Part shown: positions 7,814 through 21,442 of the stretch, piece after piece
Layout of the letters: each line of letters starts with the position of its first letter
How positions within the stretch are numbered: position 1 is the first letter of the stretch
Source: an uncultured Acidobacteriota bacterium
GTDB lineage: Bacteria > Acidobacteriota > Thermoanaerobaculia > UBA5066
Direction: 5' to 3'
Assembly (NCBI GenBank): GCA_903845115.1
Contig: CAIMWE010000117.1
Span: 1-64,000 of the forward strand
DNA: 64,000 nucleotides
The notes under the pieces: generated by a model
Database searches by the model: none
Seen by the model: only the letters and a program-made list of their open reading frames with translations
Told to the model about the DNA's origin: nothing
Program-made: the position numbers and the translations under genes

Positions 7814-8806
7814 ATGACCCCGAGCTCCCCCGAGTCGACGGGACACCCGGCTCATCCCCTCTACGCTTCGGCGGCGCTCCACTCCGTCGCGTCCGGCTCC
7901 GCCCGACCCCTGGCGGAAGCGCTCGAGATGTCCCGGGCGCGGGTCCCGGAGCGCGAGGCCATCCTCGTCGCTTCGGCGGCGCTCGAATCCCAGGATCTCT
8001 CCCCTCTCGCGGCCAGTCTCCCGGACCTCGACCTGCTTCCGCCCGACCTCGCCGCGTTCGTCGTCCGTCGCCTGGAAGCGTCGCGGACCTCCGCGAAGGC
8101 CCTCCTGCGCGTCCTTTCGGAGACCGTCGACCGTCTCCGTTCGAACGGCTGCGAGGTGGTGGTGACCGGCGAGGCCGTCGCCGCCGTCACCGTCTACCGC
8201 GAGGCCGCCCTCCGGCCGGCCCGGACCCTGCGCCTCCTTCTCGTCCGGCGCGCCGACGCGAGCCGCGCGCGGCGCTCGCTCGCCCCCCGGGCTCCGGTCT
8301 CTCTCCATGCCTCCCTCGCGTACCGGGCCCTCGGCTCCGCGACGGACCTGACCGGCCTCGTCCTGGACGACCCCGTCGTCCGGACGGTCGACGGGGTGAA
8401 AGTCCTCTTCGCCTCGCCACGCGCGCTGGCGGCGCAGCTGCTCTTCGCGGCCGCCGCCGAGTTCGCCGGGGACGGGTTTCCGGGCGTTTCCGCGATCGAC
8501 CTCCGCCTCCTCGCCCTCGCCCTGGGGCCCCTTTCTCCGGATCCGAGCGGGACCTCCCGCGGGGAGGCGGCGTCCCTGATCCATGCCGTCGACTCCGTCG
8601 AGCGCTTCTGTCCGGGCACGTTCGATCGGTCGTTCGTTTCACGCCTCGCCGGGGCGGTCCCGGTAGAGAGACGCGAGCTGGGCCGCAGGATTCCGCCCCT
8701 CCGCTTCACTCGCGCCCGTGGGAGCGGCCTCGCCCCGGCGGCGCTCATCGAGAGCCGGCTCGGGCGCCTCCGGTTCCTTCTCCGGCGTCCCGGCCTCGTG
8801 TCGTGA
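7814..8806 (+). CDS. Nucleotidyltransferase-like protein of unknown function
   Basis: A 330-aa protein without a confident family. The middle part (VVVTGEAVAAVTVY, then RTLRLLLVRRAD) has the spacing of the uncharacterised nucleotidyltransferase-like family often written NTP_transf_5, where a GxAxxx segment is followed by a strand carrying DIDLLV. Here that strand reads LRLLLV, so the catalytic acidic pair is missing, and any relationship would be to an inactive member. The rest is Ala/Leu/Arg-rich helical sequence with no signal peptide or membrane segment. The start is the ATG at 7814, close behind a TATCAT box. Treat as hypothetical. Confidence 0.5.
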   Translation: MTPSSPESTGHPAHPLYASAALHSVASGSARPLAEALEMSRARVPEREAILVASAALESQDLSPLAASLPDLDLLPPDLAAFVVRRLEASRTSAKALLRVLSETVDRLRSNGCEVVVTGEAVAAVTVYREAALRPARTLRLLLVRRADASRARRSLAPRAPVSLHASLAYRALGSATDLTGLVLDDPVVRTVDGVKVLFASPRALAAQLLFAAAAEFAGDGFPGVSAIDLRLLALALGPLSPDPSGTSRGEAASLIHAVDSVERFCPGTFDRSFVSRLAGAVPVERRELGRRIPPLRFTRARGSGLAPAALIESRLGRLRFLLRRPGLVS

Positions 8807-8883
8807 CGGGAAAGCCCCGGCACATTCCTCCTTCCGTAATCCGAGAGCCTTTCCAGGCGTCCAATCACTACAGGGGTGTGTCC

Positions 8884-11800
8884 ATGCGTCGAACTTCAGC
8901 CTCCGTTCTCCTTGCCTCCGTCGCCCTGTCGGCCCTGGCGGCGGGCCCCGCCCTCTCGGGGGAGATCCGCGGCCGCCTGCTGGCCGACGACCGGCCCGTC
9001 CCCGCGGTCTCGGTCGCCGCCGTCCCCTGGGAAACCCCATTCGAGGAGGCCCGCCGGGAGGCCCGCAGGGAGCCCGCGCCAGCCCCTCTCTCCTCCGTGA
9101 CGACGCGTCCGGACGGCCTCTTCGTCCTTCCGGTCCCGGGCGGTACCCCCTCGAAGGAATTCAGGGTGCGGGTGGAGGGAGGCGGTGTCGTCACCGCCCT
9201 CGTTCCCGGCAACTTCGACACCCAGGAAGCAGAGGACCTCGGAGATCTCGTCGTGAGCAAGGGGACCCGCCTCGCAGGGCGCGTGGCGAGCGCGGAAGGG
9301 GCCCCTCTCGCCGGGGCGGAGGTCCTCCTCCTCCCGTCCCGCCGACCGTCCAGCGGACTGGAGGCCGCCGTCCAGGCGACGAAGAGCGGCGCCGACGGCA
9401 CGTTCTACTTCGAGGCCGCCGGCGACCGGAACGAGGTCTCGATCCACGCCGACGGACTCTCGATCCAGCCGCTCTCCGGCGTGAAGGCCGGAGCCATCCC
9501 CTCGCCGATGGTCGTGCGAGCCGCCGGCTCGATCGCCGGGACGATCCGGAAGAGCGACCGGAAGACGCCGGCGGCCGGCGTCCTCGTCCGGTTCGAGGCG
9601 GCGGGGAAGACCCGGTGGGTCGAGACCGGGGCCGACGGGTCGTTCGTCGTGAAAGGAGTCCCCGCCGGGACCGGAACGCTCGTCGCCGACGGGGGCGATG
9701 CCGGGTTCGCCGAGATCCTGGGCGCGCGCGCGTCGGTCACCCCGGTGACGGTCCACCTCACGCCCGGCGCCCGCCTGGAGGGGAGGGCCGTGAACGCCGT
9801 GACAGGGAAAGCGGTCCCGCGGGCCAAGATCCTGCTCGCCGGGCCGAGAGGCCTCCTGTCGACGCGGTCCGGGGCGGACGGCCACTACCTCCTCCGGAAC
9901 TTCGTGCCGGGCCGGTTCCAGGTCCGCGGCGACGAGCCGAGATACGCGCCGTGGGAGAAGAGCGGCGTCGTCATCCGGGCGGGAGAGACCCGGAAGCTCG
10001 ACCTGCCGTTGACGCCCGGGGTGTCGATCTCCGGAACCGTCACCGACGAGACCGGCGCCCCGGTAGCCGGGGCGAAGGGGTCCCTCGCCCCCGCCACGCA
10101 GACCGGGATCAGGTCGTTCCTGCGGGGCATGACGGGCCAGGGGGAGACGGCCTTCGTCTCCGGCGCGAACGGGACCTTCCGCGCGTCCCGCCTCAGGTCC
10201 GGGGACAACCTCCGCCTGGCGGTCCATCACCCGAGCTACGAGGCCGGGGCCCTGGCCGGTCTCAACCTCCCGCCGGGGACGGTCCGTTCGGGCCTGGCGG
10301 TCATCCTCCGGCAGGGAATGCTCCTCTCCGGAATCGTGAAGGACGAGAATCAGGGAGCGGTCCCCGGGGCCGAGGTCACGCTCACGCAGGCTCGCTCCTT
10401 CGGCGGTGGCCGGGGAGGAATGGTGCTGAACGCCGCCGGGCCGATGGCGGGGCGCCCCGAGACCGAGAAGACGGGCGGCGACGGCTCGTTCACCTTCCGC
10501 GGCCTGGCGCCAGGGGATTACCAGCTCCAGGTGAAGCGGTCCGGATACGCGACGCAGACGATCGCGCCGATCAAGGTCGCGCGGGGCGAGGACCCGCAGC
10601 CGGTCGGGGTCTTCCTGACTCCCGGCGCGGCGATCGCCGGCTACGTGAAGCTGAAGGACGGCACGCCGCTCGCCGGAAAGGTCGTCACCGTGAGGCCTCC
10701 GCCGGGAACAGCCGGACCGGCTCTTCTCGCCGGTCTCGAGCCCACGGGCCCGGACGGCCTCTTCGTCCTCGACGGCCTGAAGCCGGGACAGAGCTACGAC
10801 CTGCTCCTCCTCGAGCCGTCGGCGATGCCGCGCGTCGTCCGGAGCGGGGTCTCCGCGCCCGCCGAAGGGATCGACCTCCTGCTCCCGGCGCCGGGCCGGA
10901 TCACCGGGAACGCGGTCGACGCCGGTTCCGGCAAGCCGGTCGTGGACTTCCAGGTCTGGTACGACGCCGACCGTTCCACCGGGCAGGGGGGCGGCGGACA
11001 GATGATCCGCATGGTGGCTAGAGGAGTGGCCCAGCAGCTCGGAATCGGAAACAACGAGAAGGTGGTCGTCCACGCGGAGGACGGCACCTTCGCCCTCGAG
11101 AACGTCCCCCCCGGGAACTGGGAGGTCAACGTCGAGGCGACGGGATACCAGACCGCCCGCGTCGGCGGCGTCACGGTCGCAGAGGGGACGGAGCGCGCCG
11201 GGATCACGGTGAAGGTCTCCCCAGGCGTGACGCTCTCTGGCAAGGTGGTGGACTCCATGTCGGGCCGTGGGATCCCCAACGTCCAGGTCTCCCCGGCCGG
11301 AGCCGGGTCCCCCGGCGGAGCCATGCGGGCCGCCCTTCCCCAGGCAGACGACGGGTCCGGCCCCACCACCGACGCCGACGGGGAGTTCCAGATGGATGGC
11401 ATCGCGCCGGGCAAGTACTCGATCAGCGCGAAGCACCCGGACTACGCGGATGGCTCAGAGAGCGTGGACGTGAAGGTGACCGGGGCGGCGGTCAAGATCT
11501 CGCTCTCCCCGGGGAGCCACATCTCGGGCCTCGTCGCGGACGCGTCGAACCAGCCGCTGGCGGGCGCCCAGGTGGCCCTCGTCGCGGCGTCCGACGGCGG
11601 TCCGATGGGACGGGGCGGGATCGGCACCTCCGGGACGACCACCGACCAGAGCGGGAGCTTCCGCTTCGACCACCTCGCGGCCGGCCGGTACACCGTCACC
11701 GCCTCCCTCCGGAACGCCTCGAGCAGCCAGCAGCAGGTCGTCCTCGCGGCCGGCCAGTCGCAGGACGCCGTGATCATCTCCCTCTCCGCCGGCGCCACCG

Positions 11801-13098
11801 TCCAGGGGACCCTCACTGGCCTCGCCGCCGACAAGCGTGGGAACGTCCTGGTCTCGGCGAGCGGCGCCGACGGGTTCGCGAGCTCCGTCCGGTCCGCCTC
11901 CGACGGGAGTTTCCAGATCTCCGGGGCGCCGGAGGGGATCCTGATGCTAAGGGCCACGGCCGGCGACATCCTCTCCTCCAGCCAGACGAAGACGGCCGAG
12001 GTCCAGATCCCGTCGGGCCAGACCTTCGTCCCCGCCGAGATCGCCTTCGACCCGTCCGGGGCGACCCTCTCCGGCTCGGTCACCCGGGGGGGGCAGGCTG
12101 TCAGCGGCGGGTCCGTGATGGTCAACGCCCGGGGCGGAGCCGGAGTCGCCTACTCCGGAACGGTCGACGGCTCCGGCCGATACAGCGTCGCCGGGGTCCA
12201 GAACGGGACCTACACCGTCACCTATCGGGACCTCTCGTCAGGCGGGGGAACCGTCTCGAAGACGGTCACGGTCTCCGCCGATACCAGCGCCGACCTGGAC
12301 GTCCCGCAGGGGAGCATCTCGGGCACCGTCGTCGAGACCGGGACCAACCTGCCGCTCGCGAATGCGACTGTCTCGGCGACGCCCGCGAGCTCGGGGGGCC
12401 AGGCGGCAGCCGGGGGAGGCCCAGGCGGGGGCGGCCGCACCGCGACCACGGACAGCAACGGGTCGTTCTCCCTGGAATCGTTGAATCCGGCGGCGTTCAA
12501 CGTCGTGGTGCGCCTGGCCGGGTACCTCTTCGACCCGAAGAGCGTCACCCTGAGCGGGCCCGAGACGCAGCAGGTGACGATCCAGGGCAGGCGGTCGGAC
12601 GGCATCGGCGTCCAGGCGACCGACGGAATCCTCGGCGTCCCGCTCCGCTCGCTGCAGGCCCGCGTCATGAGCGGGGCGGCGACCACCTACGTCGGGACCA
12701 TCTCGCTGGACAGCAACGGATCGGGCGAGATCCCGTCGGTCCAGCCAGGCAGCTACACCGTCATCCTCGACGCGACCGGGTACGCCCCGGCGGTCCTCGC
12801 GCCGGTGAACGTCCCCTCCCAGACGCTCGTGGTCGGCCTGACCCCCGGAGGGAACGCGGAGTTCCACGCCGGCGCGAAGACGCTGGCGGCGGGGACGGCC
12901 CTGGCGACCCTCTTGACCTCGAGCGGCGTCCCCTATCCCTTCACGGTCTTCGGCCAGCCGGGACGGATCACCCTGAACTTCCCGGTCCGCCTGATCCAGA
13001 ACATCGCCCCCGGCTCGTACACGATCGCGCTGGATGCCGGCGGATCCCAGTCTTTCACCGTCCAGGAGGGGGGCACGGCGGTCGTCACGCTTCCGTGA
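8884..13098 (+). CDS. Giant secreted protein with tandem carboxypeptidase-regulatory-like domains
   Basis: A 1404-aa exported protein. A signal peptide (about 1-24, ending PALSG) is followed by a long tandem array of beta-sandwich modules. Each starts with a strand of the type SISGTVTDETGAPVAGA or LSGIVKDENQGAVPGA and ends with FRGLAPGDYQLQV-like sequence, the signature of the CarboxypepD_reg (SdrD-B-like) fold; about a dozen repeats can be followed. There is no transmembrane anchor, LPXTG or catalytic domain, so it is probably a periplasmic or surface structural/adhesive protein. Such long arrays are common in Acidobacteriota. The ATG follows an AGGGGTG ribosome binding site. Gly/Pro/Ala-rich codon use matches its neighbours. 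Confidence 0.8.
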   Translation: MRRTSASVLLASVALSALAAGPALSGEIRGRLLADDRPVPAVSVAAVPWETPFEEARREARREPAPAPLSSVTTRPDGLFVLPVPGGTPSKEFRVRVEGGGVVTALVPGNFDTQEAEDLGDLVVSKGTRLAGRVASAEGAPLAGAEVLLLPSRRPSSGLEAAVQATKSGADGTFYFEAAGDRNEVSIHADGLSIQPLSGVKAGAIPSPMVVRAAGSIAGTIRKSDRKTPAAGVLVRFEAAGKTRWVETGADGSFVVKGVPAGTGTLVADGGDAGFAEILGARASVTPVTVHLTPGARLEGRAVNAVTGKAVPRAKILLAGPRGLLSTRSGADGHYLLRNFVPGRFQVRGDEPRYAPWEKSGVVIRAGETRKLDLPLTPGVSISGTVTDETGAPVAGAKGSLAPATQTGIRSFLRGMTGQGETAFVSGANGTFRASRLRSGDNLRLAVHHPSYEAGALAGLNLPPGTVRSGLAVILRQGMLLSGIVKDENQGAVPGAEVTLTQARSFGGGRGGMVLNAAGPMAGRPETEKTGGDGSFTFRGLAPGDYQLQVKRSGYATQTIAPIKVARGEDPQPVGVFLTPGAAIAGYVKLKDGTPLAGKVVTVRPPPGTAGPALLAGLEPTGPDGLFVLDGLKPGQSYDLLLLEPSAMPRVVRSGVSAPAEGIDLLLPAPGRITGNAVDAGSGKPVVDFQVWYDADRSTGQGGGGQMIRMVARGVAQQLGIGNNEKVVVHAEDGTFALENVPPGNWEVNVEATGYQTARVGGVTVAEGTERAGITVKVSPGVTLSGKVVDSMSGRGIPNVQVSPAGAGSPGGAMRAALPQADDGSGPTTDADGEFQMDGIAPGKYSISAKHPDYADGSESVDVKVTGAAVKISLSPGSHISGLVADASNQPLAGAQVALVAASDGGPMGRGGIGTSGTTTDQSGSFRFDHLAAGRYTVTASLRNASSSQQQVVLAAGQSQDAVIISLSAGATVQGTLTGLAADKRGNVLVSASGADGFASSVRSASDGSFQISGAPEGILMLRATAGDILSSSQTKTAEVQIPSGQTFVPAEIAFDPSGATLSGSVTRGGQAVSGGSVMVNARGGAGVAYSGTVDGSGRYSVAGVQNGTYTVTYRDLSSGGGTVSKTVTVSADTSADLDVPQGSISGTVVETGTNLPLANATVSATPASSGGQAAAGGGPGGGGRTATTDSNGSFSLESLNPAAFNVVVRLAGYLFDPKSVTLSGPETQQVTIQGRRSDGIGVQATDGILGVPLRSLQARVMSGAATTYVGTISLDSNGSGEIPSVQPGSYTVILDATGYAPAVLAPVNVPSQTLVVGLTPGGNAEFHAGAKTLAAGTALATLLTSSGVPYPFTVFGQPGRITLNFPVRLIQNIAPGSYTIALDAGGSQSFTVQEGGTAVVTLP

Positions 13099-14300: not shown

Positions 14301-15500
14301 CTACTGTAGCCGCTGCCACTCCGCCCGGGAGCGCTCGACGCAGTCCTCGATGGCGAGCCCGGCGAACCAGTTTCCGAGAAGGGAGAGCTTCGTCCCGGCC
14401 GTGAGCCGGTCGACCTCCCGGACGGTCTCCTCGTGGCCGAGGGCCGGCGACGGGAGGACGCCCCTCCTCTCGACCAGCTCCTCGAGATCCGCGGGAACGA
14501 GGCCGAGGAGGCGCGTGGCCCGCTCGATCCGTCCGCCCCGGGAGAGGCCCGGCTTGAAGTGGAACGAGAAGGATCTCCAGTCCGGGTCCGGAACCGAGTC
14601 CCGGGTCACGACGGAGTGGAAGACGTCGCTCTTCGGGACGAGGAACATCGAGACCGGGAGACGGGTCTTCGAGGAGCGGACGGCGAAGGCCATCGTCTCC
14701 ACCTCGGCCTCGCGCACCTTCGAGACGACGGCGGAGAGGTCGGGGAAGGCCTCCGCGAGGATCCGGGCCGCGGACGCCGGCCCGCTGGCCAGGGCGACGG
14801 CGCCGGCCTCCAGCCGCTCGCCATCCTCGGCGACGACGGTGAAGCCGGCCCCGGCCTTCTCGAGCCGGGCGACGGCGCGCCCCGCCGCGAACTCGATCCC
14901 CGGCTCCGACGCCATCCGCTCGGCGATCGACTGGAGGCCGCCGCGAAGCGTGAAACTGCGCGGAAAATCCTTGCGGCGCGTCTGACGGCTCTTGAAGAGC
15001 ATCCCGGCAGGGAAGGCGTCGGCGCTCTGGGAGGGGACCGCCGACAACATCGGCCCGAGGACGGTCTCGTAATTCCTCTTCCCCACGATCCGCGAGTAGA
15101 AGGAGCGGACGGTCTGCCCCTCCTTCTTCGCGCCGACGAGGCGCGGGAGGCTCACGACCATTTCCCACCACGAGAAGAGACGGAGGAGGACCGCGAGATT
15201 CGAACCGGGAACGAGGCGGTCCCCGTCCAGGAAGCGCAGGTGAGTGGCGGCCCGCGGGAGGACCTCCCCGCGGAGCCCGCACGCCTCGACCAGCTCCGCG
15301 AAGCCGGTGTACGAGTTGTAGCAGGTGTGGGCCCCCAGCTCGAACCAGTAGCCTGACGAGCCCCGGTGCGACGAGAGGCAGCCCCCCGGCCGAGCGTCAC
15401 GCTCCAGCACGAGGACCGAGCGGCCGGCCCGGGCAGCCTGGAAAGCGAAGGTGAGGCCGCTGATCCCGCCCCCGACAACGACGACGTCGTATTTCTTCAT
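14301..15500 (-). CDS. Protoporphyrinogen oxidase-like FAD flavoprotein
   Basis: A 399-aa flavoprotein of the protoporphyrinogen/coproporphyrinogen oxidase-amine oxidase family. The N-terminus carries the FAD dinucleotide-binding motif VVVVGGGISGLTF (residues 7-19) followed by VLVLERDARPGG. The central FTLRGGLQSIAERMA and the C-terminal LLGNWFAGLAIEDCVE are the segments typical of the HemG/HemY type enzyme, where the second closes over the FAD. It is shorter than usual for HemY (about 460 residues). No other haem gene is adjacent, so the substrate might instead be a related polyene or sugar. It converges with pheA and is divergent from the esterase gene. Confidence 0.7.
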   Translation of the reverse strand: MKKYDVVVVGGGISGLTFAFQAARAGRSVLVLERDARPGGCLSSHRGSSGYWFELGAHTCYNSYTGFAELVEACGLRGEVLPRAATHLRFLDGDRLVPGSNLAVLLRLFSWWEMVVSLPRLVGAKKEGQTVRSFYSRIVGKRNYETVLGPMLSAVPSQSADAFPAGMLFKSRQTRRKDFPRSFTLRGGLQSIAERMASEPGIEFAAGRAVARLEKAGAGFTVVAEDGERLEAGAVALASGPASAARILAEAFPDLSAVVSKVREAEVETMAFAVRSSKTRLPVSMFLVPKSDVFHSVVTRDSVPDPDWRSFSFHFKPGLSRGGRIERATRLLGLVPADLEELVERRGVLPSPALGHEETVREVDRLTAGTKLSLLGNWFAGLAIEDCVERSRAEWQRLQ

Positions 15501-15605: not shown

Positions 15606-15611
15606 CTGGTG

Positions 15612-16352
15612 GTGCCGCGGACCTCGACCACCGGTTTCCTGACGCGCTCCCTGGCCGACGGGAAGGAGCGGCGCCTCTACCAGGTGTTCGTGCCGGGCGG
15701 CTACACGCCGAAGTCGCGGTGGCCGGTGATCCTCTTCCTCCACGGCGCCGGGGAGGGGGGGCGCGATCCGCTCCTTCCGACCGAGTACCAGCTCGGCAGC
15801 GCCATACGCCGCAACGCCTCGCGGTTCCCCGGCATCGCCATCTTCCCGCAGGTCCAGCGCAAGGCAGGCTGGGGCGAGGCGGACGTGAGGTTCGCCATGG
15901 AAGCGCTGGCGCGCACCGAGCGGGACTTCGCGACCGACGTCGACCGCGTCTACCTCACCGGCGTCTCCAGCGGAGCCAGGGCCGCGTGGTACGCGCTCTA
16001 CCGCCACCCACGTCGCTTCGCCGCCGCGCTCGTCGTCTGCGGGCTCGTCAGGCCGCCCCTCCGGAACGGCGTGCGCCCCCCGGACCCCTATCCCGTCGTC
16101 CCCGACGCCGACGGCGACGCGGTCGAGCAGCTGGCGCGGAGGCTCCGGGCGACGCCGGTCTGGACCTTCCACGGGGACGCCGACCCGGTCTTCCCGGTCG
16201 AGGACGCCCGGCAGGTGATGGCCGCCCTCGCCCGCGAGGGGGCCCCGGCCCGCTACACGGAGCTGGCGGGCTTCGGCCACGACGTCTGGGACGTCGCGTA
16301 CTACTCCGAGGAGGTCGCGGACTGGCTCTTCGCGCAGTCCCGCGCCTCCTGA
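15612..16352 (+). CDS. Alpha/beta-hydrolase, carboxylesterase/phospholipase-like
   Basis: A 246-aa alpha/beta-hydrolase without a signal peptide. Visible features are the oxyanion/loop strand VILFLHGAGEGG, the nucleophile elbow GVSSGARAAW (GxSxG), an acidic residue in FHGDADPVFPV and the catalytic histidine in GFGHDVWD. It resembles the dienelactone-hydrolase/feruloyl-esterase-like group (PF02230 or prolyl-oligopeptidase type), normally 220-260 residues. The stop is only 6 bases before the Nif11-leader peptide gene, so the two are probably one operon. A role in trimming or esterifying the peptide product is possible but unproved. The start at 15612 (GTG) was chosen from the -10 box spacing. 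Confidence 0.75.
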   Translation: MPRTSTTGFLTRSLADGKERRLYQVFVPGGYTPKSRWPVILFLHGAGEGGRDPLLPTEYQLGSAIRRNASRFPGIAIFPQVQRKAGWGEADVRFAMEALARTERDFATDVDRVYLTGVSSGARAAWYALYRHPRRFAAALVVCGLVRPPLRNGVRPPDPYPVVPDADGDAVEQLARRLRATPVWTFHGDADPVFPVEDARQVMAALAREGAPARYTELAGFGHDVWDVAYYSEEVADWLFAQSRAS

Positions 16353-16358
16353 CGCGCC

Positions 16359-16613
16359 ATGTCGCGAGAGCAGATGAACGCCTTCCTCGAGAGGGTCCGC
16401 TCGGACGCCTCCCTCCGGCAGGAGCTGCGGGGGAGCGACGCCGCGGGCGCCGCCGCCCTCGCCGCGCGGGCCGGCTTCCACGTCACCGTGGGCGACCTGG
16501 TCCGGCACCAGTCGCGGGCGACCACCTGGCAGCTGTCCGACGACGAACTCGCCGTGGTCGCGGCGTGGCAGCCAAAGCACCGGGTCCACTGGTGGCAGTG
16601 CGTCTGGGACTGA
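16359..16613 (+). CDS. Nif11-leader RiPP precursor peptide with Trp/Cys-rich core
   Basis: An 84-aa peptide. Residues 1-50 match the Nif11-like leader seen in natural-product precursors: MSREQMNAFLERV, then SDASLRQEL, then AARAGFHVTVGDL. The leader end reads LSDDELAVVAA, where classical members end in a double glycine. What follows is a short tail (about residues 70-84) with four Trp (70, 78, 79, 83), one Cys (81) and two His. This is the layout of a ribosomally made, modified peptide: leader, cleavage region, core. The gene lies 6 bases after the esterase gene and is followed by a second small peptide and a glycosyltransferase-like gene. No lanthionine synthetase or radical SAM enzyme is nearby. 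Confidence 0.75.
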   Translation: MSREQMNAFLERVRSDASLRQELRGSDAAGAAALAARAGFHVTVGDLVRHQSRATTWQLSDDELAVVAAWQPKHRVHWWQCVWD

Positions 16614-16704
16614 CGGATAATCTCCCCGGCTCCCGGAAGCGCGCCGGAAGGGGCGGCATCCGGGTTCCATCCGACCGCGGCGACAACGTTGAAAGGAGCG
16701 GCTC

Positions 16705-16893
16705 ATGCCCGACGAGAAGACGAAGAAGAGCGACCCCGAGGCTGCCGCGCAGCCCGTCCCGGAGGGGAAGCTGTCCGAGCAGGACCTCGCCTGGGTCTCC
16801 GGCAAGCTCTCCGACGAGGCGCTCGAGGGGTTGGCCGGAGCCGATGGCATACCCGGCGAGGCGGGCTGGCCGCCGCCCGGCGAGGCGGCTTGA
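16705..16893 (+). CDS. Second putative precursor peptide (62 aa)
   Basis: A 62-aa acidic peptide with a good ribosome binding site (AAAGGAG) and a GATAAT box at 16616-16621. It contains two leader-like segments, LSEQDLAWVSG and LSDEALEGLAGAD, resembling the ends of Nif11/NHLP-type leaders, and then a short tail, GIPGEAGWPPPGEAA. The tail repeats PGEA, encoded by an exact 13-bp direct repeat (16852-16864 and 16876-16888). Position, between a Nif11 precursor and a glycosyltransferase-like gene, suggests a second RiPP substrate. No homolog is recognised by eye, and it might alternatively be a small accessory protein. Confidence 0.5.
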   Translation: MPDEKTKKSDPEAAAQPVPEGKLSEQDLAWVSGKLSDEALEGLAGADGIPGEAGWPPPGEAA

Positions 16894-16906
16894 CCGCCTG
16901 ACCGGT

Positions 16907-17719
16907 ATGAGGTTCGGCGAGGTCGTCGCCCGGAGCGTCTACGGCTCGGTCGGCTACCTCCAGGAGCCCCGGGACGCCACGGTCCTGGAGCGGAACCTGC
17001 GGCACAACCTGCCGGTCTTGAGGCTGTTCCGGGGCGTCGTCGTCGCCACCAACTACGGGGGCGAATCGACGCGGGAGCTTTCCGCCCTCAGCCGGGAGAC
17101 GTGGCGCCGTCACGTCCCCGGGTGCGTCCTGCTCGACTCCCCTCTCAACCGCGGCCACTCCATCGGGACGGCCGACCTGGACAACATGGTGTTCGACCAC
17201 TCCAAGGCGTCCGGGGCGGAGTGGCTCTGCAAGGGAGCCAACGACATCCTCCTGGACCCGCCGGTGCTCGACATCGAGGTCGAGCCCGCCGACTTCTACT
17301 ATCTCGATGCCATCTCCTCCAGGATGCCCCCGCGGATCGACGGCGAACACGGGGAGGCCGCCCCCGGTTTCTTCTTTCCGCAGACCAACTTCTACGCCAT
17401 CGACGTCGGCAAGACCGACTTCCTGGTGGAGAAGGAGCTCCTGGACCGCTCGTTCGCGATCGTGGGGAGGATCCCGGGCTACAACGGCAGGATCTGGGAG
17501 CACATCCCGAACTGGTCGTGCGAGAACCTCCTGAGAAAGTGCGTCCAGAGGAACGGGCTGAGGCGATGCTCCCTGATGGACGACGCCCAGTTCTCAAGCC
17601 TCCTCCGTCTCGTCCGGGAGCGCGGCATCGAGGACTGTAGCCTCAAGAACCTCGCCATCAACGGGATCTGCCACGTCCACGAGGAGAGGCCGCCCGGGAG
17701 CGGCCCGGCCGCCGGCTGA
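16907..17719 (+). CDS. Putative GT-A-type glycosyltransferase
   Basis: A 270-aa protein with no confident family. The pattern resembles GT-A glycosyltransferases: a first strand VVVATNYGG, then NRGHSIGTADLDN, a typical nucleotide-sugar-site segment, then KGANDILLDPP with an Asp where the DxD-type metal motif would be expected. A C-terminal cysteine-containing region (SCENLLRKCVQ) follows. No signal peptide or membrane helix. It starts 13 bases after the second small peptide and ends the plus-strand operon, converging with another glycosyltransferase-like gene. In context it may glycosylate one of the small peptides or add to a surface glycan. Confidence 0.5.
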   Translation: MRFGEVVARSVYGSVGYLQEPRDATVLERNLRHNLPVLRLFRGVVVATNYGGESTRELSALSRETWRRHVPGCVLLDSPLNRGHSIGTADLDNMVFDHSKASGAEWLCKGANDILLDPPVLDIEVEPADFYYLDAISSRMPPRIDGEHGEAAPGFFFPQTNFYAIDVGKTDFLVEKELLDRSFAIVGRIPGYNGRIWEHIPNWSCENLLRKCVQRNGLRRCSLMDDAQFSSLLRLVRERGIEDCSLKNLAINGICHVHEERPPGSGPAAG

Positions 17720-17725
17720 ACCCCC

Positions 17726-18433
17726 TCAGCGATCGACGCCGAATCGCCGCCGGTCGGCGATCCAGTTCCGGGTCTCCCTCTCGCCCATCGTCCGCCCGGG
17801 GAAGCAGGCCGAGTCGTGGCCGACGTGCTTGAAGAGGCTCGGCACGTGCACCGCGTAAAGGGAGCGGTCTCCCCCGTGGAGGTGGACCAGGAGCGAGAAC
17901 CGGATGTCGCTGCAGTTCCTCCCGCCGTCCCCGTAGGCGGCGACGTGGGTCCGGATCCCCCGGGAGGACTCGATGCGGGCGCTGAACCAGTCCTCCCGCC
18001 CGCTCATCGCCGCGCACCCGCGGTGGATCAGGAGGGCCTGGTTGCCCCACCATCCCCGGCCGTCGCTGCCGAGGGCGCTCCGCTCGTAGAGACCGCGGGG
18101 GGCGTACTCCGGCACCTCCCGCATGTCGCAGAAGGAGATGACGCCCACCCGCTCGGGAAAGGCGACGCGAGAGACCAGCTCCGGCGCCTCGGCGTCCGCC
18201 AGCACGTCGTCCTCCAGGAAGAGGACGTGGCCGCCCGAGGCCGCCGCCCGCGAGATCGCGTTGCGCGTCGCCACCGCAGCCCCGTCCCGGCCATCGTCGC
18301 GGTGGACCATCGGCCGGGCAAAGGCCGGATGGGCGGCGAAGGCCGCGGCGAGGGCGGCGGCTTCGTCTCCCCTGCGGGCGGGGGTCGTCAGGATCACGGG
18401 CTGGATCAAGGTCTGGGTCACGGGCTGGGTCAC
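17726..18433 (-). CDS. Glycosyltransferase-like protein
   Basis: A 235-aa protein resembling short GT-A glycosyltransferases. After an N-terminal strand (QPVILTTPARRGD), the HVLFLEDDVLAD segment carries the acidic metal-binding cluster, and NQALLIHRGCA resembles the acceptor loop of lipopolysaccharide/GT25-like transferases. The first twelve codons contain imperfect repeats of a GTGACCCAG-type sequence (MTQPVTQTLIQP). The true start could therefore be one of the later GTG codons. It is transcribed divergently from the GT4 gene across a shared -10 region and converges with the previous glycosyltransferase-like gene, leaving only 6 bases between them. Confidence 0.6.
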   Translation of the reverse strand: MTQPVTQTLIQPVILTTPARRGDEAAALAAAFAAHPAFARPMVHRDDGRDGAAVATRNAISRAAASGGHVLFLEDDVLADAEAPELVSRVAFPERVGVISFCDMREVPEYAPRGLYERSALGSDGRGWWGNQALLIHRGCAAMSGREDWFSARIESSRGIRTHVAAYGDGGRNCSDIRFSLLVHLHGGDRSLYAVHVPSLFKHVGHDSACFPGRTMGERETRNWIADRRRFGVDR

Positions 18434-18450
18434 GGACAGTTCGGCGCCGG

Positions 18451-18460
18451 ATGATATCTT
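18451..18460. promoter_or_regulatory. Overlapping divergent -10 boxes
   Basis: The decamer 18451-18460 reads TATCTT on the plus strand (18455-18460) toward the GT4 gene and TATCAT on the minus strand (complement of 18451-18456) toward the 235-aa glycosyltransferase. The two boxes overlap by two bases, so RNA polymerase could serve only one direction at a time. A GGAGGGGGG ribosome binding site (18476-18484) precedes the plus-strand GTG at 18492. Confidence 0.4.
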
Positions 18461-18491
18461 GGGGGATGACCTTCCGGAGGGGGGCTTCCAG

Positions 18492-20189
18492 GTGACGCTG
18501 CAATCCGACGAGCTGGCGATCTACCTCCCGAACGGCCGCGTCGCGCCTCCCGTCAACCCGTACGGCCGGCTGATCGCCAACGCGGGGCTCTACCGGGCGC
18601 TGGCGAGGTACGGCGGGTACCGGAAGCTCCACTTCCAGAGCCACGGGGCGCTCCCGCTCGACCGCCTCGCCCGCGAGCTCCACCTCCCGGAGGGCGCCGG
18701 GACGGGACTGAGCGCCGGCTCCCCCCTGGCCACGGAAGCCCCTTCCCGCGCGGGCGTCCTTCTCTCGGGCCAGCCGTACCTCTCGGGGCTGGCCTGGACG
18801 AGGCGCAACACGGCGGGAGACGGCGCGTACAGCCTCGTCGGGTCCATCTTCGCCTTCGCCTCGGCGACCCACCGCGAGGAGATGATGGAGTCGGCGATGG
18901 CGCCCCTGCAGCGGTGGGACGCCCTGGTCTGCACCTCTCCCGCGCTCGAAGAGGCCGTCGTCCGGACGTTCGACGCGTGGGAGGACTACCTCCGCGAGAG
19001 AACCGGCGCCTCCCGGCTGCCGCGCCCCGCCCTCCCCGTCATCCCGCTGGGCGCCGACGTCGAGCTCCACGGCGCCTGGGCGGCCGACGCCGGCGCGCGG
19101 AAGGAGCTGCGCGGCTCCCTCCGGATCGCCGACGCCGACGTGGCCGTCCTCTTCCTCGGGCGGCTGTCGTTCTTCGACAAGGCGTTCCCGCAGGCGATGT
19201 TCAAGGCCGTCGAAGAGGCGCAGCGCCGCACGGGGGTCCGGACCCACTTCGTCATGGCGGGGTGGTTCCCGGCCGGCGAGAGGGACCGCGCCCGCTACGA
19301 AGAGGCCGCCCGGGCGTACGCGCCGGACGTCGTCACCCACTTCCTGGACGGCAACGACGCCGGCGTCGTGGCGCGGTGCTGGGCGGCGGCGGACGTCTTC
19401 CTCCTCCTCTCGGACACGATCCTCGAGACCTTCGGCCAGGCGCCCGTGGAAGCGATGGCGGCCGGCCTACCGCTCGTCGTCAGCGACTGGGACGGCTACC
19501 GCTCCATCGTGCGCGACGGCGTCGACGGCTTCCTCGTACCGACGCTCGGCGCTTCCGGGGGGCGCCTGGGAGAGACCCTCGCCCTCCTCCAGGAGCTCGA
19601 CGCGGTGAGCTACGCCCAGTACGCCGGCTCGGTCGCCCAGCACACCGCGGTCCACGTCGGACGCGCGGCGGACGCGCTGAGCCTCCTGATCTCTTCCCCC
19701 GAGCTCCGCGCCTCGATGGGCGCGGCGGGCCGGCTGAGGGCCCGCGAGATCTTCTCCTGGGCCGCGGTGGTCGAGCAGTACAAGAGCCTCTTCTCCGCGC
19801 TGGCGGAGGAGCGGCTCCGCGGGGCGGTCGCGGGCGGGGAGACGAACGTCGCGGCCCACCGGCTGAACCCGCTCCGCGCGGACCCCTTCGAGACCTTCCG
19901 GGGCCATCCCAGCGCCGTGATGGACGAGGACCTCCGGCTCCGCCTCGCCCCGCCCCTCGGCCGCGGCGCGCTCGCCGCGGACCCCGGCGTGGAGCTCGAC
20001 CACCTCTTCCCCGGGCTACGCGGAAGCGAAGCGGAGGCGCGCCGGGTGGTGGAGCTGCTGAGGGAAGCGGGATCCCTCCCGGTGCGCGAGGTGCTGCTCG
20101 CCTTCCCCCCGGCCCGCCGCCCCTTCGTCCGGATGTCCCTCGCGTGGCTGGCGAAGGTCGGCGTGGTGGACTGGCTTCCGGCCGGCTGA
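18492..20189 (+). CDS. GT4-family glycosyltransferase
   Basis: A 565-aa protein. The central and C-terminal part is a GT-B fold: VAVLFLGRLSFFDKAF (nucleotide-domain strand), then THFLDGNDAGVVARCWAAADVFLLLSD. The EX7E motif ETFGQAPVE and AAGLPLVVSDWDGYRSIVRDGVDG identify glycosyltransferase family 4. The N-terminal domain (about 1-190) includes GSIFAFASATHREEMM and is less conserved. A C-terminal extension of about 130 residues after the GT domain, with LRADPFETFRGHPS, has no assignment. The GTG at 18492 is preceded by a strong ribosome binding site. The acceptor is unknown; the neighbouring small peptides and glycosyltransferases suggest a shared glycan or glycopeptide product. Confidence 0.8.
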   Translation: MTLQSDELAIYLPNGRVAPPVNPYGRLIANAGLYRALARYGGYRKLHFQSHGALPLDRLARELHLPEGAGTGLSAGSPLATEAPSRAGVLLSGQPYLSGLAWTRRNTAGDGAYSLVGSIFAFASATHREEMMESAMAPLQRWDALVCTSPALEEAVVRTFDAWEDYLRERTGASRLPRPALPVIPLGADVELHGAWAADAGARKELRGSLRIADADVAVLFLGRLSFFDKAFPQAMFKAVEEAQRRTGVRTHFVMAGWFPAGERDRARYEEAARAYAPDVVTHFLDGNDAGVVARCWAAADVFLLLSDTILETFGQAPVEAMAAGLPLVVSDWDGYRSIVRDGVDGFLVPTLGASGGRLGETLALLQELDAVSYAQYAGSVAQHTAVHVGRAADALSLLISSPELRASMGAAGRLRAREIFSWAAVVEQYKSLFSALAEERLRGAVAGGETNVAAHRLNPLRADPFETFRGHPSAVMDEDLRLRLAPPLGRGALAADPGVELDHLFPGLRGSEAEARRVVELLREAGSLPVREVLLAFPPARRPFVRMSLAWLAKVGVVDWLPAG

Positions 20190-20217
20190 GCCGCGCCGGC
20201 GGGCGGAGCGGCGCTCC

Positions 20218-20910
20218 CTACCGGAGGGGGAAGCGGACGAAGTGCGACCAGTCCCGCCCGTCGTCCCCCGTCCGGCGGAAGACGCCCAGGTTCTCGCACG
20301 CCGTCGGGACCTCCTCGAAGTCTCCGCGGTTGTTCCTCACGAACGAGACGACCGCCTCCACGCTGTCCAGCCAGCGGTCGTGAAGCACGATCGCCCCGCC
20401 GGGGCTGCAGGTCCGCGCGGCCAGGGTGAAATCGACGAGAACGTCGTCGAACCGGTGGTACCCGTCGATGAACGTGAGGTCGTGGCACCGCCCCGCCCTC
20501 TCCAGCTCCACGAGCGCCCTTTCGGACCGGTCCTCGACCCACGAGAAGGAGCCCGGCGCCAGGACGGGCGAGCGGGAGACGAGGCGCCGCGCGTGGCCGG
20601 CGCCGATGCCGTGCCAGTCCGTCGCCTGGAACGGGTCGATCGAGACGAGCGTGCCGCCCCCGGCCTTCTCCAGCGCGGCGAGCAGGAAGACCGTGCTGAA
20701 CCCGTAGGCGAGCCCCACCTCGAGGAGGGAGGTCGCGCCGGCGGCCACGCACAGGCCATGGAGCGTCATCCCCTCGGCGACCGAGATCCGCGTGGTGGCG
20801 TCGATCGGGTGCCGCTGGCCGTCCTCCCCGAGTTGCGGCTCCCCTCCGTACATCGACGCCAGGACGTCCCGGTGGCACTCTCCCAGCGGCGACAGCTCGT
20901 CGCGGCTCAC
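20218..20910 (-). CDS. Class I SAM-dependent methyltransferase
   Basis: A 230-aa Rossmann-fold methyltransferase of the Methyltransf_24 type. Motif I is LLEVGLAYGFST (about 62-73), followed by LVSIDPFQATDW with the acidic ribose-binding residue, and then DLTFIDGYHRFDDVLVD, typical of cephalosporin-hydroxylase-like and O-methyltransferase-like proteins. The C-terminus is complete. It is 22 bases downstream of leuD in the same direction and converges with the GT4 gene, so it could belong to the dehydratase operon or to the glycosyl island. The latter fits the function better but the former fits the strand. Confidence 0.75.
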   Translation of the reverse strand: MSRDELSPLGECHRDVLASMYGGEPQLGEDGQRHPIDATTRISVAEGMTLHGLCVAAGATSLLEVGLAYGFSTVFLLAALEKAGGGTLVSIDPFQATDWHGIGAGHARRLVSRSPVLAPGSFSWVEDRSERALVELERAGRCHDLTFIDGYHRFDDVLVDFTLAARTCSPGGAIVLHDRWLDSVEAVVSFVRNNRGDFEEVPTACENLGVFRRTGDDGRDWSHFVRFPLR

Positions 20911-20932: not shown

Positions 20933-21442
20933 TCAGGCCGGACGCGCCTCGACGAGGCGCTTTCTCGTCCAGGCGATCAGCCCCCCGGCGTCGATGATCG
21001 ACTGGCGCGCCTTCGGGAGCGGGACGACGGGGAACGACTCCCCCGTCGTCCGGTTGACCACCCTCTCCTCCAGGAGCTCCAGCTCGTCTCCGGCCGAGGC
21101 CTTCACGCCCGGAGCCGTGACGACGCGGAGGCCGAGGTTGATGGAGTTCTGGAGGAAGATCCGGGCGATGTCGTTCGCCACGATGGTGACGTCGTAGCCC
21201 TTGAGTGTGGAGCAGGCCTGCTCGCGGGAGGAGCCGCACCCGAAGTTCTTCCCGGCCACGATGACCGAGCCGGGCTCGTAGTTCTTCGCCTTCAGCAGGG
21301 CGTTGTGCTCGGCGTCGTTCGCGAAAGCGTACTGGGGGGTTTCGGTCGGGAGGACCGTCGCCATGTACCGGCCCGGGTAGAGGACGTCGGTGGAGACGTC
21401 GTCGCCGACGGTGAAGAGGACCTTCGAAACCATGCTCGTCAC
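20933..21442 (-). CDS. leuD: 3-isopropylmalate/homoaconitate dehydratase-type small subunit
   Basis: A 169-aa small subunit of the aconitase superfamily, the swivelling domain that closes the active site. Landmarks are STDVLYPGRYM (the substrate-recognition loop), the FGCGSSREQA motif and VANDIARIFLQNSINLGL. The length fits the archaeal/thermophile-type LeuD (about 165) rather than the 200-residue enterobacterial form. It begins one base after the leuC stop, with a GGAGG 8 bases before the GTG. The YMAT at the recognition loop does not clearly match either the isopropylmalate or homoaconitate versions, so another hydroxy-diacid is possible. Confidence 0.85.
   Translation of the reverse strand: MTSMVSKVLFTVGDDVSTDVLYPGRYMATVLPTETPQYAFANDAEHNALLKAKNYEPGSVIVAGKNFGCGSSREQACSTLKGYDVTIVANDIARIFLQNSINLGLRVVTAPGVKASAGDELELLEERVVNRTTGESFPVVPLPKARQSIIDAGGLIAWTRKRLVEARPA

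Follow-up and report, generated by a model that had tools for sequence, protein, structure and literature searches.

Gene content of the cassette

Between an FAD oxidoreductase gene (14301-15500, -) and leuD (20933-21442, -) on contig C117, which belongs to a 5.85-Mb assembly of 305 contigs, the window (the whole 64,000-nucleotide stretch of DNA that was analysed) carries a set of seven genes spanning positions 15609-20910. The set begins with an esterase of the alpha/beta hydrolase type (15609-16352, +), which scores above cut-off for PF00756 and PF00326 and whose start is uncertain (GTG at 15609 or nearby), followed by genes for an 84-residue Nif11-domain protein (16359-16613, +) and a 62-residue peptide, here called peptide 2 (16705-16893, +). 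The first-pass annotation had placed a Nif11 ORF 6 bp after the esterase gene and a second small peptide behind it, and both genes were borne out: the Nif11 ORF passes the Pfam (PF07862, 40.7 bits, cut-off 23.8) and NCBIfam (TIGR03798, 54.8 bits, cut-off 32.3) thresholds, and peptide 2 has an SD-like GGAG and related peptides placed alike in three other genomes. Downstream lie the 270-residue orphan ORF3 (16907-17719, +), the 235-residue orphan ORF4 (17726-18433, -), a GT4 glycosyltransferase with a C-terminal extension of ~110 residues (18459-20189, +; start at TTG 18459 or GTG 18492) and a class I SAM-dependent O-methyltransferase-like protein (20218-20910, -). Elsewhere in the window, positions 8734-13098 encode a very large protein in which carboxypeptidase regulatory-like repeats (PF13620) occur at least seven times.

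The esterase is 63-65% identical to its counterparts in two other cassettes (L007 and L008, introduced below), and the motifs GVSSG, HGDxDPVFP and GFGHDVWD are conserved. Among matches to solved structures, the L007 homologue fits a Thermotoga-type esterase best (3doh, 5e-36); a role as leader peptidase was rejected, as the closest solved relatives are esterases and not prolyl oligopeptidases. The methyltransferase, also anticipated by the initial reading, is recognised by PF13578 (67.8 bits), weakly matches the putative O-methyltransferase 5lhm and is 59-63% identical in L006-L008. Likewise as anticipated, the usual RiPP synthetases (LanM/LanC, radical-SAM, YcaO) were not seen among the cassette genes or the nearby flanking genes covered by the scan.

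Three glycosyltransferase-like proteins had been proposed, and of these GT4 stands by its family match (PF00534, 72.4 bits, cut-off 26.4), with 61-69% identity in L006-L008. For ORF3 and ORF4, searches of Pfam, NCBIfam, PHROGs and the PDB sequences gave no family. AlphaFold models are poor (pLDDT ~51), and that of ORF3, a protein 53-61% identical across L006, L007 and L008, has a pLDDT of 51.5 overall with better values over residues 1-80 (block means ~62-86); nearly all Foldseek matches to this model are nucleotide-sugar or nucleotidyl transferases (best E 6.6e-5, ~110-137 columns). This low-confidence fold points to GT-A and makes ORF3 a candidate glycosyltransferase. ORF4 appears GT-A-like by eye (LEDDV), which leaves its kinship to glycosyltransferases a matter of inspection; it is 62% identical to the ORF4 of L006, is absent from L007 and L008, and was found by profile search among 396 genomes only in that of L006. 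No relatedness between ORF3 and ORF4 was detectable with the very thin profiles available. The C-terminal extension of GT4 is modelled as helix-strand-helix-helix-strand (AlphaFold, pLDDT ~65-83), and its sequence matches no RRE in Pfam or the PDB.

Distribution, gene order and probable horizontal transfer

A scan for ORF3 across genomes from ~85,000 species, which needs short exact peptide matches and could thus miss distant relatives, returned only three loci: L006 (3275-7970) in an Actinomycetota MAG, L007 (4197-10859) in a Geobacter MAG and L008 (4045-10839) in a Desulfobacteraceae MAG. Profile searches of 396 genomes of the window's own phylum, 395 of L007's phylum and 291 of L008's class gave one ORF3 match each, none of them beyond the known loci. 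Peptide 2, ORF3, GT4 and the methyltransferase are common to all four cassettes, a conservation that rests on thin alignments of seemingly MAG-derived sequences throughout. The esterase and Nif11 genes recur in L007 and L008 with a 6-bp gap identical to that of the window; in L006 the esterase adjoins the methyltransferase and runs off the contig, which ends before the Nif11 position. In place of ORF4, L007 and L008, both bacterial MAGs, have a chitin-synthase-like GT2 (PF01644, 71 bits; 8910-10859 and 8800-10839, respectively) joined to the cassette. Because the gene set is kept in four genomes, chance can be excluded as its origin, and the earlier view that the peptides, transferases and methyltransferase belong together without a usual RiPP synthetase holds: close relatives of ORF3 were found only alongside the peptide. 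The four orthologous cassettes are directly expressible, with clear boundaries in L007 and L008.

Gene order in the window is esterase, Nif11, peptide 2, ORF3, ORF4 (-), GT4, methyltransferase (-), that in L006 is peptide 2, ORF3, ORF4 (-), GT4, methyltransferase (-), esterase, and that in L007 and L008 is GT4, methyltransferase (-), esterase, Nif11, peptide 2, ORF3, plus the GT2. These four orders are circular permutations of one order, as might arise from a circular intermediate or from tandem duplication with subsequent loss. The cassette is a rare, patchy unit kept together in genomes whose records place them in at least three unrelated groups. Its G+C content lies 5-6 percentage points above that of the flanks in L007 and L008, and dS between these two copies is only 0.33-0.61, though their records name different groups. 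Horizontal transfer of the cassette is probable and the simplest reading of this pattern, with mis-binning of a MAG contig as an alternative explanation of the cross-group distribution. In a check for an empty insertion site, leuD and the FAD oxidase lay on different contigs in family members. Relatives of GT4, ORF3 and Nif11 were not found in viral contigs, nor were those of ORF3 in phages or those of ORF3, ORF4, Nif11 and the GT2 on plasmids, and a phage or plasmid location was rejected on these searches. There were no PHROGs matches and no defence-system match of note.

The first-pass annotation had held that the same glycosyltransferases occurring without the peptide in relatives would speak against a peptide-linked function, and this was seen weakly, for distant relatives of GT4 (34-41% identity) that have no annotated Nif11 neighbour. 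These relatives, found on Azospirillum, Niveispirillum, Rhodovastum and Desulfolutivibrio plasmids, have the C-terminal extension partly in common with GT4, are located in polysaccharide/glycoprotein loci and frequently have giant calcium-binding, RTX-like, DUF4214 or M10 proteins as neighbours. Such neighbourhoods fit, and do not prove, a family that glycosylates exported polypeptides. At three loci on alphaproteobacterial and Desulfolutivibrio plasmids (L021, 2889-10644; L024, 1194-10422; L025, 2507-10587) the adjoining proteins are giant calcium-binding, RTX-like or DUF4214 proteins, and glycosylation of type-I-secreted proteins is possible there.

The two small proteins as candidate precursors

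The leader of peptide 2 ends in KLSDEALEGLAGA in the window, QLSEDDMEAVVGG in L006, ELSDEELKDVSGG in L007 and ELSDEDMKDVSGG in L008. By motif, three of the four copies have an ELSEKELxxIxGG-type sequence before the core, the window copy having GA instead of GG; the motif is of the type tabulated for N11P, NHLP and bacteriocin leaders by Haft 2010 (Table 3, PMC2887384). Only the L007 copy passes the TIGR01847 (bacteriocin_sig) cut-off, and it nearly reaches that of TIGR03949 for class IIb bacteriocins. Glycocins, too, have a leader of the double-glycine type. Behind the motif stand cores of 9-18 residues, reading LGTSNMGILGEAGLGEAI in L006, VAKNLGEAA in L007 and LGEAVFGEAA in L008; the window core is ADGIPGEAGWPPPGEAA, less those motif residues that can be counted either way, and after the motif reads ADG-IPGEAGWPPPGEAA, split according to the tool alignment. 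All four cores contain one or two GEA units and end in GEAA or GEAI. Peptide 2 is the fastest-evolving member of the set (dN/dS 0.21/0.347 for L007 versus L008, over only 52 codons). Ser, Thr, Cys and Asn are absent from the window and L008 cores, which excludes conventional O-, S- or N-glycosylation at the core in these two copies; judging by the four sequences, the GEA glutamate would be the only conserved, plausibly modifiable core residue, with the C-terminal carboxylate also remaining. A search of the four genomes gave no clear further copy of peptide 2, weak matches including NHLP-like leaders, and an RNA hairpin upstream of peptide 2 was rejected (z-scores -0.05, -1.28 and -0.04).

On balance we favour a peptide-modifying, RiPP-like system as the description of the cassette and, given such a system, consider it reasonably probable that peptide 2 rather than the Nif11 protein is the main precursor, because of its LSDEEL-GG leader, its fast evolution and its GEA core; the first-pass annotation had listed this peptide without interpreting it. 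Alternatively, the product might be an ordinary glycan, either extracellular or capsular, and the two small proteins regulatory or structural subunits of the glycosyltransferase complex, not its substrates. Most of the genes encode sugar-type enzymes, to which L007 and L008 add the chitin-synthase-like GT2, distant GT4 relatives reside in polysaccharide/glycoprotein loci, and the Nif11 protein is constrained as a subunit might be; the leader of peptide 2, however, is of the canonical double-glycine kind and the peptide evolves fast, and genes for nucleotide-sugar synthesis, a flippase or polymer export are absent from the cassette, which renders this explanation unlikely.

The Nif11 protein presents a different pattern of constraint from peptide 2. 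Its copies in L007 and L008 are 57-62% identical to that of the window, and their Nif11-like leader domains also lie above the curated TIGR03798 cut-off (39.6 and 36.3 bits, cut-off 32.3). The protein retains an LSDDEL motif and has AW/EW where Nif11 precursors have GG (LSDDELAVVAAW / LTDAELAVVEEW), and neither a Gly-Gly nor a Gly-Ala cleavage site was found at the end of its leader. No variable core follows: the tail is conserved (WQP....WWQ...D, with Trp, Gln and Asp kept), with identities of 7/15 between the window and L007 (31/47 in the domain) and 14/16 between L007 and L008, and a dN/dS of 0.082/0.609 for the latter pair is similar to those of the cassette enzymes, suggesting a protein constrained like an enzyme. 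The Cys/Trp chemistry originally envisaged for this tail did not survive the comparison, as the Cys of the window is Phe in L007 and L008; Cys-based chemistry was rejected on this ground. One could still picture the Nif11 protein as the main precursor, its Trp-rich tail glycosylated or otherwise modified and freed by some other protease, with peptide 2 as an additional substrate or a helper. The family TIGR03798 comprises RiPP leaders, and the tail is short, polar-aromatic, conserved in its Trp, Gln and Asp residues and encoded beside transferases, but the missing cleavage site, the non-conserved Cys, the conserved rather than hypervariable tail and the enzyme-like dN/dS make this arrangement improbable. 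The cassette bears in any case on the role of stand-alone Nif11 proteins. That the small peptides are unmodified, bacteriocin-like double-glycine peptides, with the adjoining sugar enzymes serving self-protection, is highly improbable, for, despite the TIGR01847 match and near-match to TIGR03949 in L007, the cores, with 9-18 residues and a GEAA end, are far below bacteriocin size, no immunity protein is recognised and distant taxa have all kept the enzyme set.

Proposed product and comparison with known systems

The product is probably a small peptide bearing sugars, of a type so far undescribed, as far as gene content can indicate; that the cassette is self-contained for modifying a ribosomal peptide by sugar transfer, with no classical RiPP synthetase, we regard as a proposition falling just short of likely. 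In the gene roles and order of steps that we infer, peptide 2 would most probably serve as precursor or carrier, with recognition of its LSDEEL-GG-type leader and modification of its short GEA-containing C-terminus. ORF3, GT4 and a third transferase that varies between cassettes, namely ORF4 or, in the delta-proteobacterial copies, the chitin-synthase-like GT2, would assemble a glycan on peptide 2 or pass one to it. The methyltransferase may cap a sugar hydroxyl or carboxylate, the esterase may hydrolyse or transfer an ester in the product, and the Nif11 protein, having no cleavage site, may act in trans as a scaffold or chaperone. Cleavage at GG and export of the product would fall to a C39 peptidase-transporter whose gene lies outside the cassette. 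No transporter or peptidase lies within the cassette and no peptide-acting enzyme was identified there by homology; C39 peptidase-transporters are encoded outside it in all four genomes, and export at GG is therefore possible but unlinked to the cassette.

As no conserved core group other than the GEA glutamate or the C-terminal carboxylate is plausibly modifiable, an acyl-linked sugar or glycan primer is our leading guess, although a Glu-linked glycan on peptide 2 is, taken by itself, a tentative and rather unlikely assignment. The fullest version of the proposal is less likely still: orphan GT-A/GT4 enzymes would define a new RiPP class by placing a glycan on short GEA cores, at the Glu or the C-terminal carboxylate, with a separate, uncleaved Nif11 protein as recognition scaffold in trans and the whole cassette moving between phyla. 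Were it true, the defining enzymes would be sugar transferases of no known family, missed by searches for lanthionine, radical-SAM or YcaO enzymes.

The cassette has a Nif11 leader domain and an LSDEEL-type motif near its end in common with Nif11-derived peptides (N11P, TIGR03798; Haft, Basu and Mitchell 2010, PMC2887384); unlike these systems, its Nif11 protein lacks a Gly-Gly site and hypervariable core, no cyclodehydratase or lanthionine synthetase is present, and the double-glycine motif is borne by a separate second peptide. The nearest working analogue is mycofactocin (MftA-F), in which a ribosomal peptide product is oligoglycosylated by MftF and one of the sugars carries a 2-O-methyl group (PMC7491314). 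Common to both would be a glycosyltransferase acting on a ribosomal peptide, sugar O-methylation and a tiny C-terminal core, whereas the cassette has no identified MftB chaperone, MftD, MftE or Val-Tyr core and instead has three transferases, an esterase and a GEA core. The defining radical SAM enzyme of mycofactocin, MftC, is also absent, as none of the seven cassette genes, assigned or orphan, matches radical SAM in Pfam or NCBIfam. Glycocins (PMC6405829, PMC12457901) likewise use dedicated glycosyltransferases but are O- and/or S-glycosylated; the Ser/Thr/Cys acceptors this takes are absent from two of the four peptide 2 cores (window and L008), and the cassette transferases belong to different families. 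RRE-glycosyltransferase fusions predicted by RRE-Finder (PMC7470986) resemble GT4 in joining an extra domain to a glycosyltransferase in a putative RiPP cluster, but the GT4 extension has no RRE sequence match and similar extensions occur on GT4 enzymes without such peptides annotated nearby.

Other leader-type peptides are encoded elsewhere in these genomes. The window's own genome has, on contig C280, two near-identical tandem peptides of 134 residues with a KAVAGGAG Gly-Gly motif (L043, 1276-1680 and 2364-2768), which by eye resemble nitrile-hydratase-type leader peptides (NHLP), and another Nif11 peptide, with LNDSDLDRIAGG and a Gly-Gly site, adjoins a gene that by eye is predicted to be phosphoesterase-like (L002, 1501-1770). 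The L006 genome encodes separate Nif11 peptides (L013, 552-821 and 978-2141; L014, 1501-1797), one of them near a protein that looks LanC-like, in what by eye appears to be an ordinary lanthipeptide locus unrelated to the cassette.
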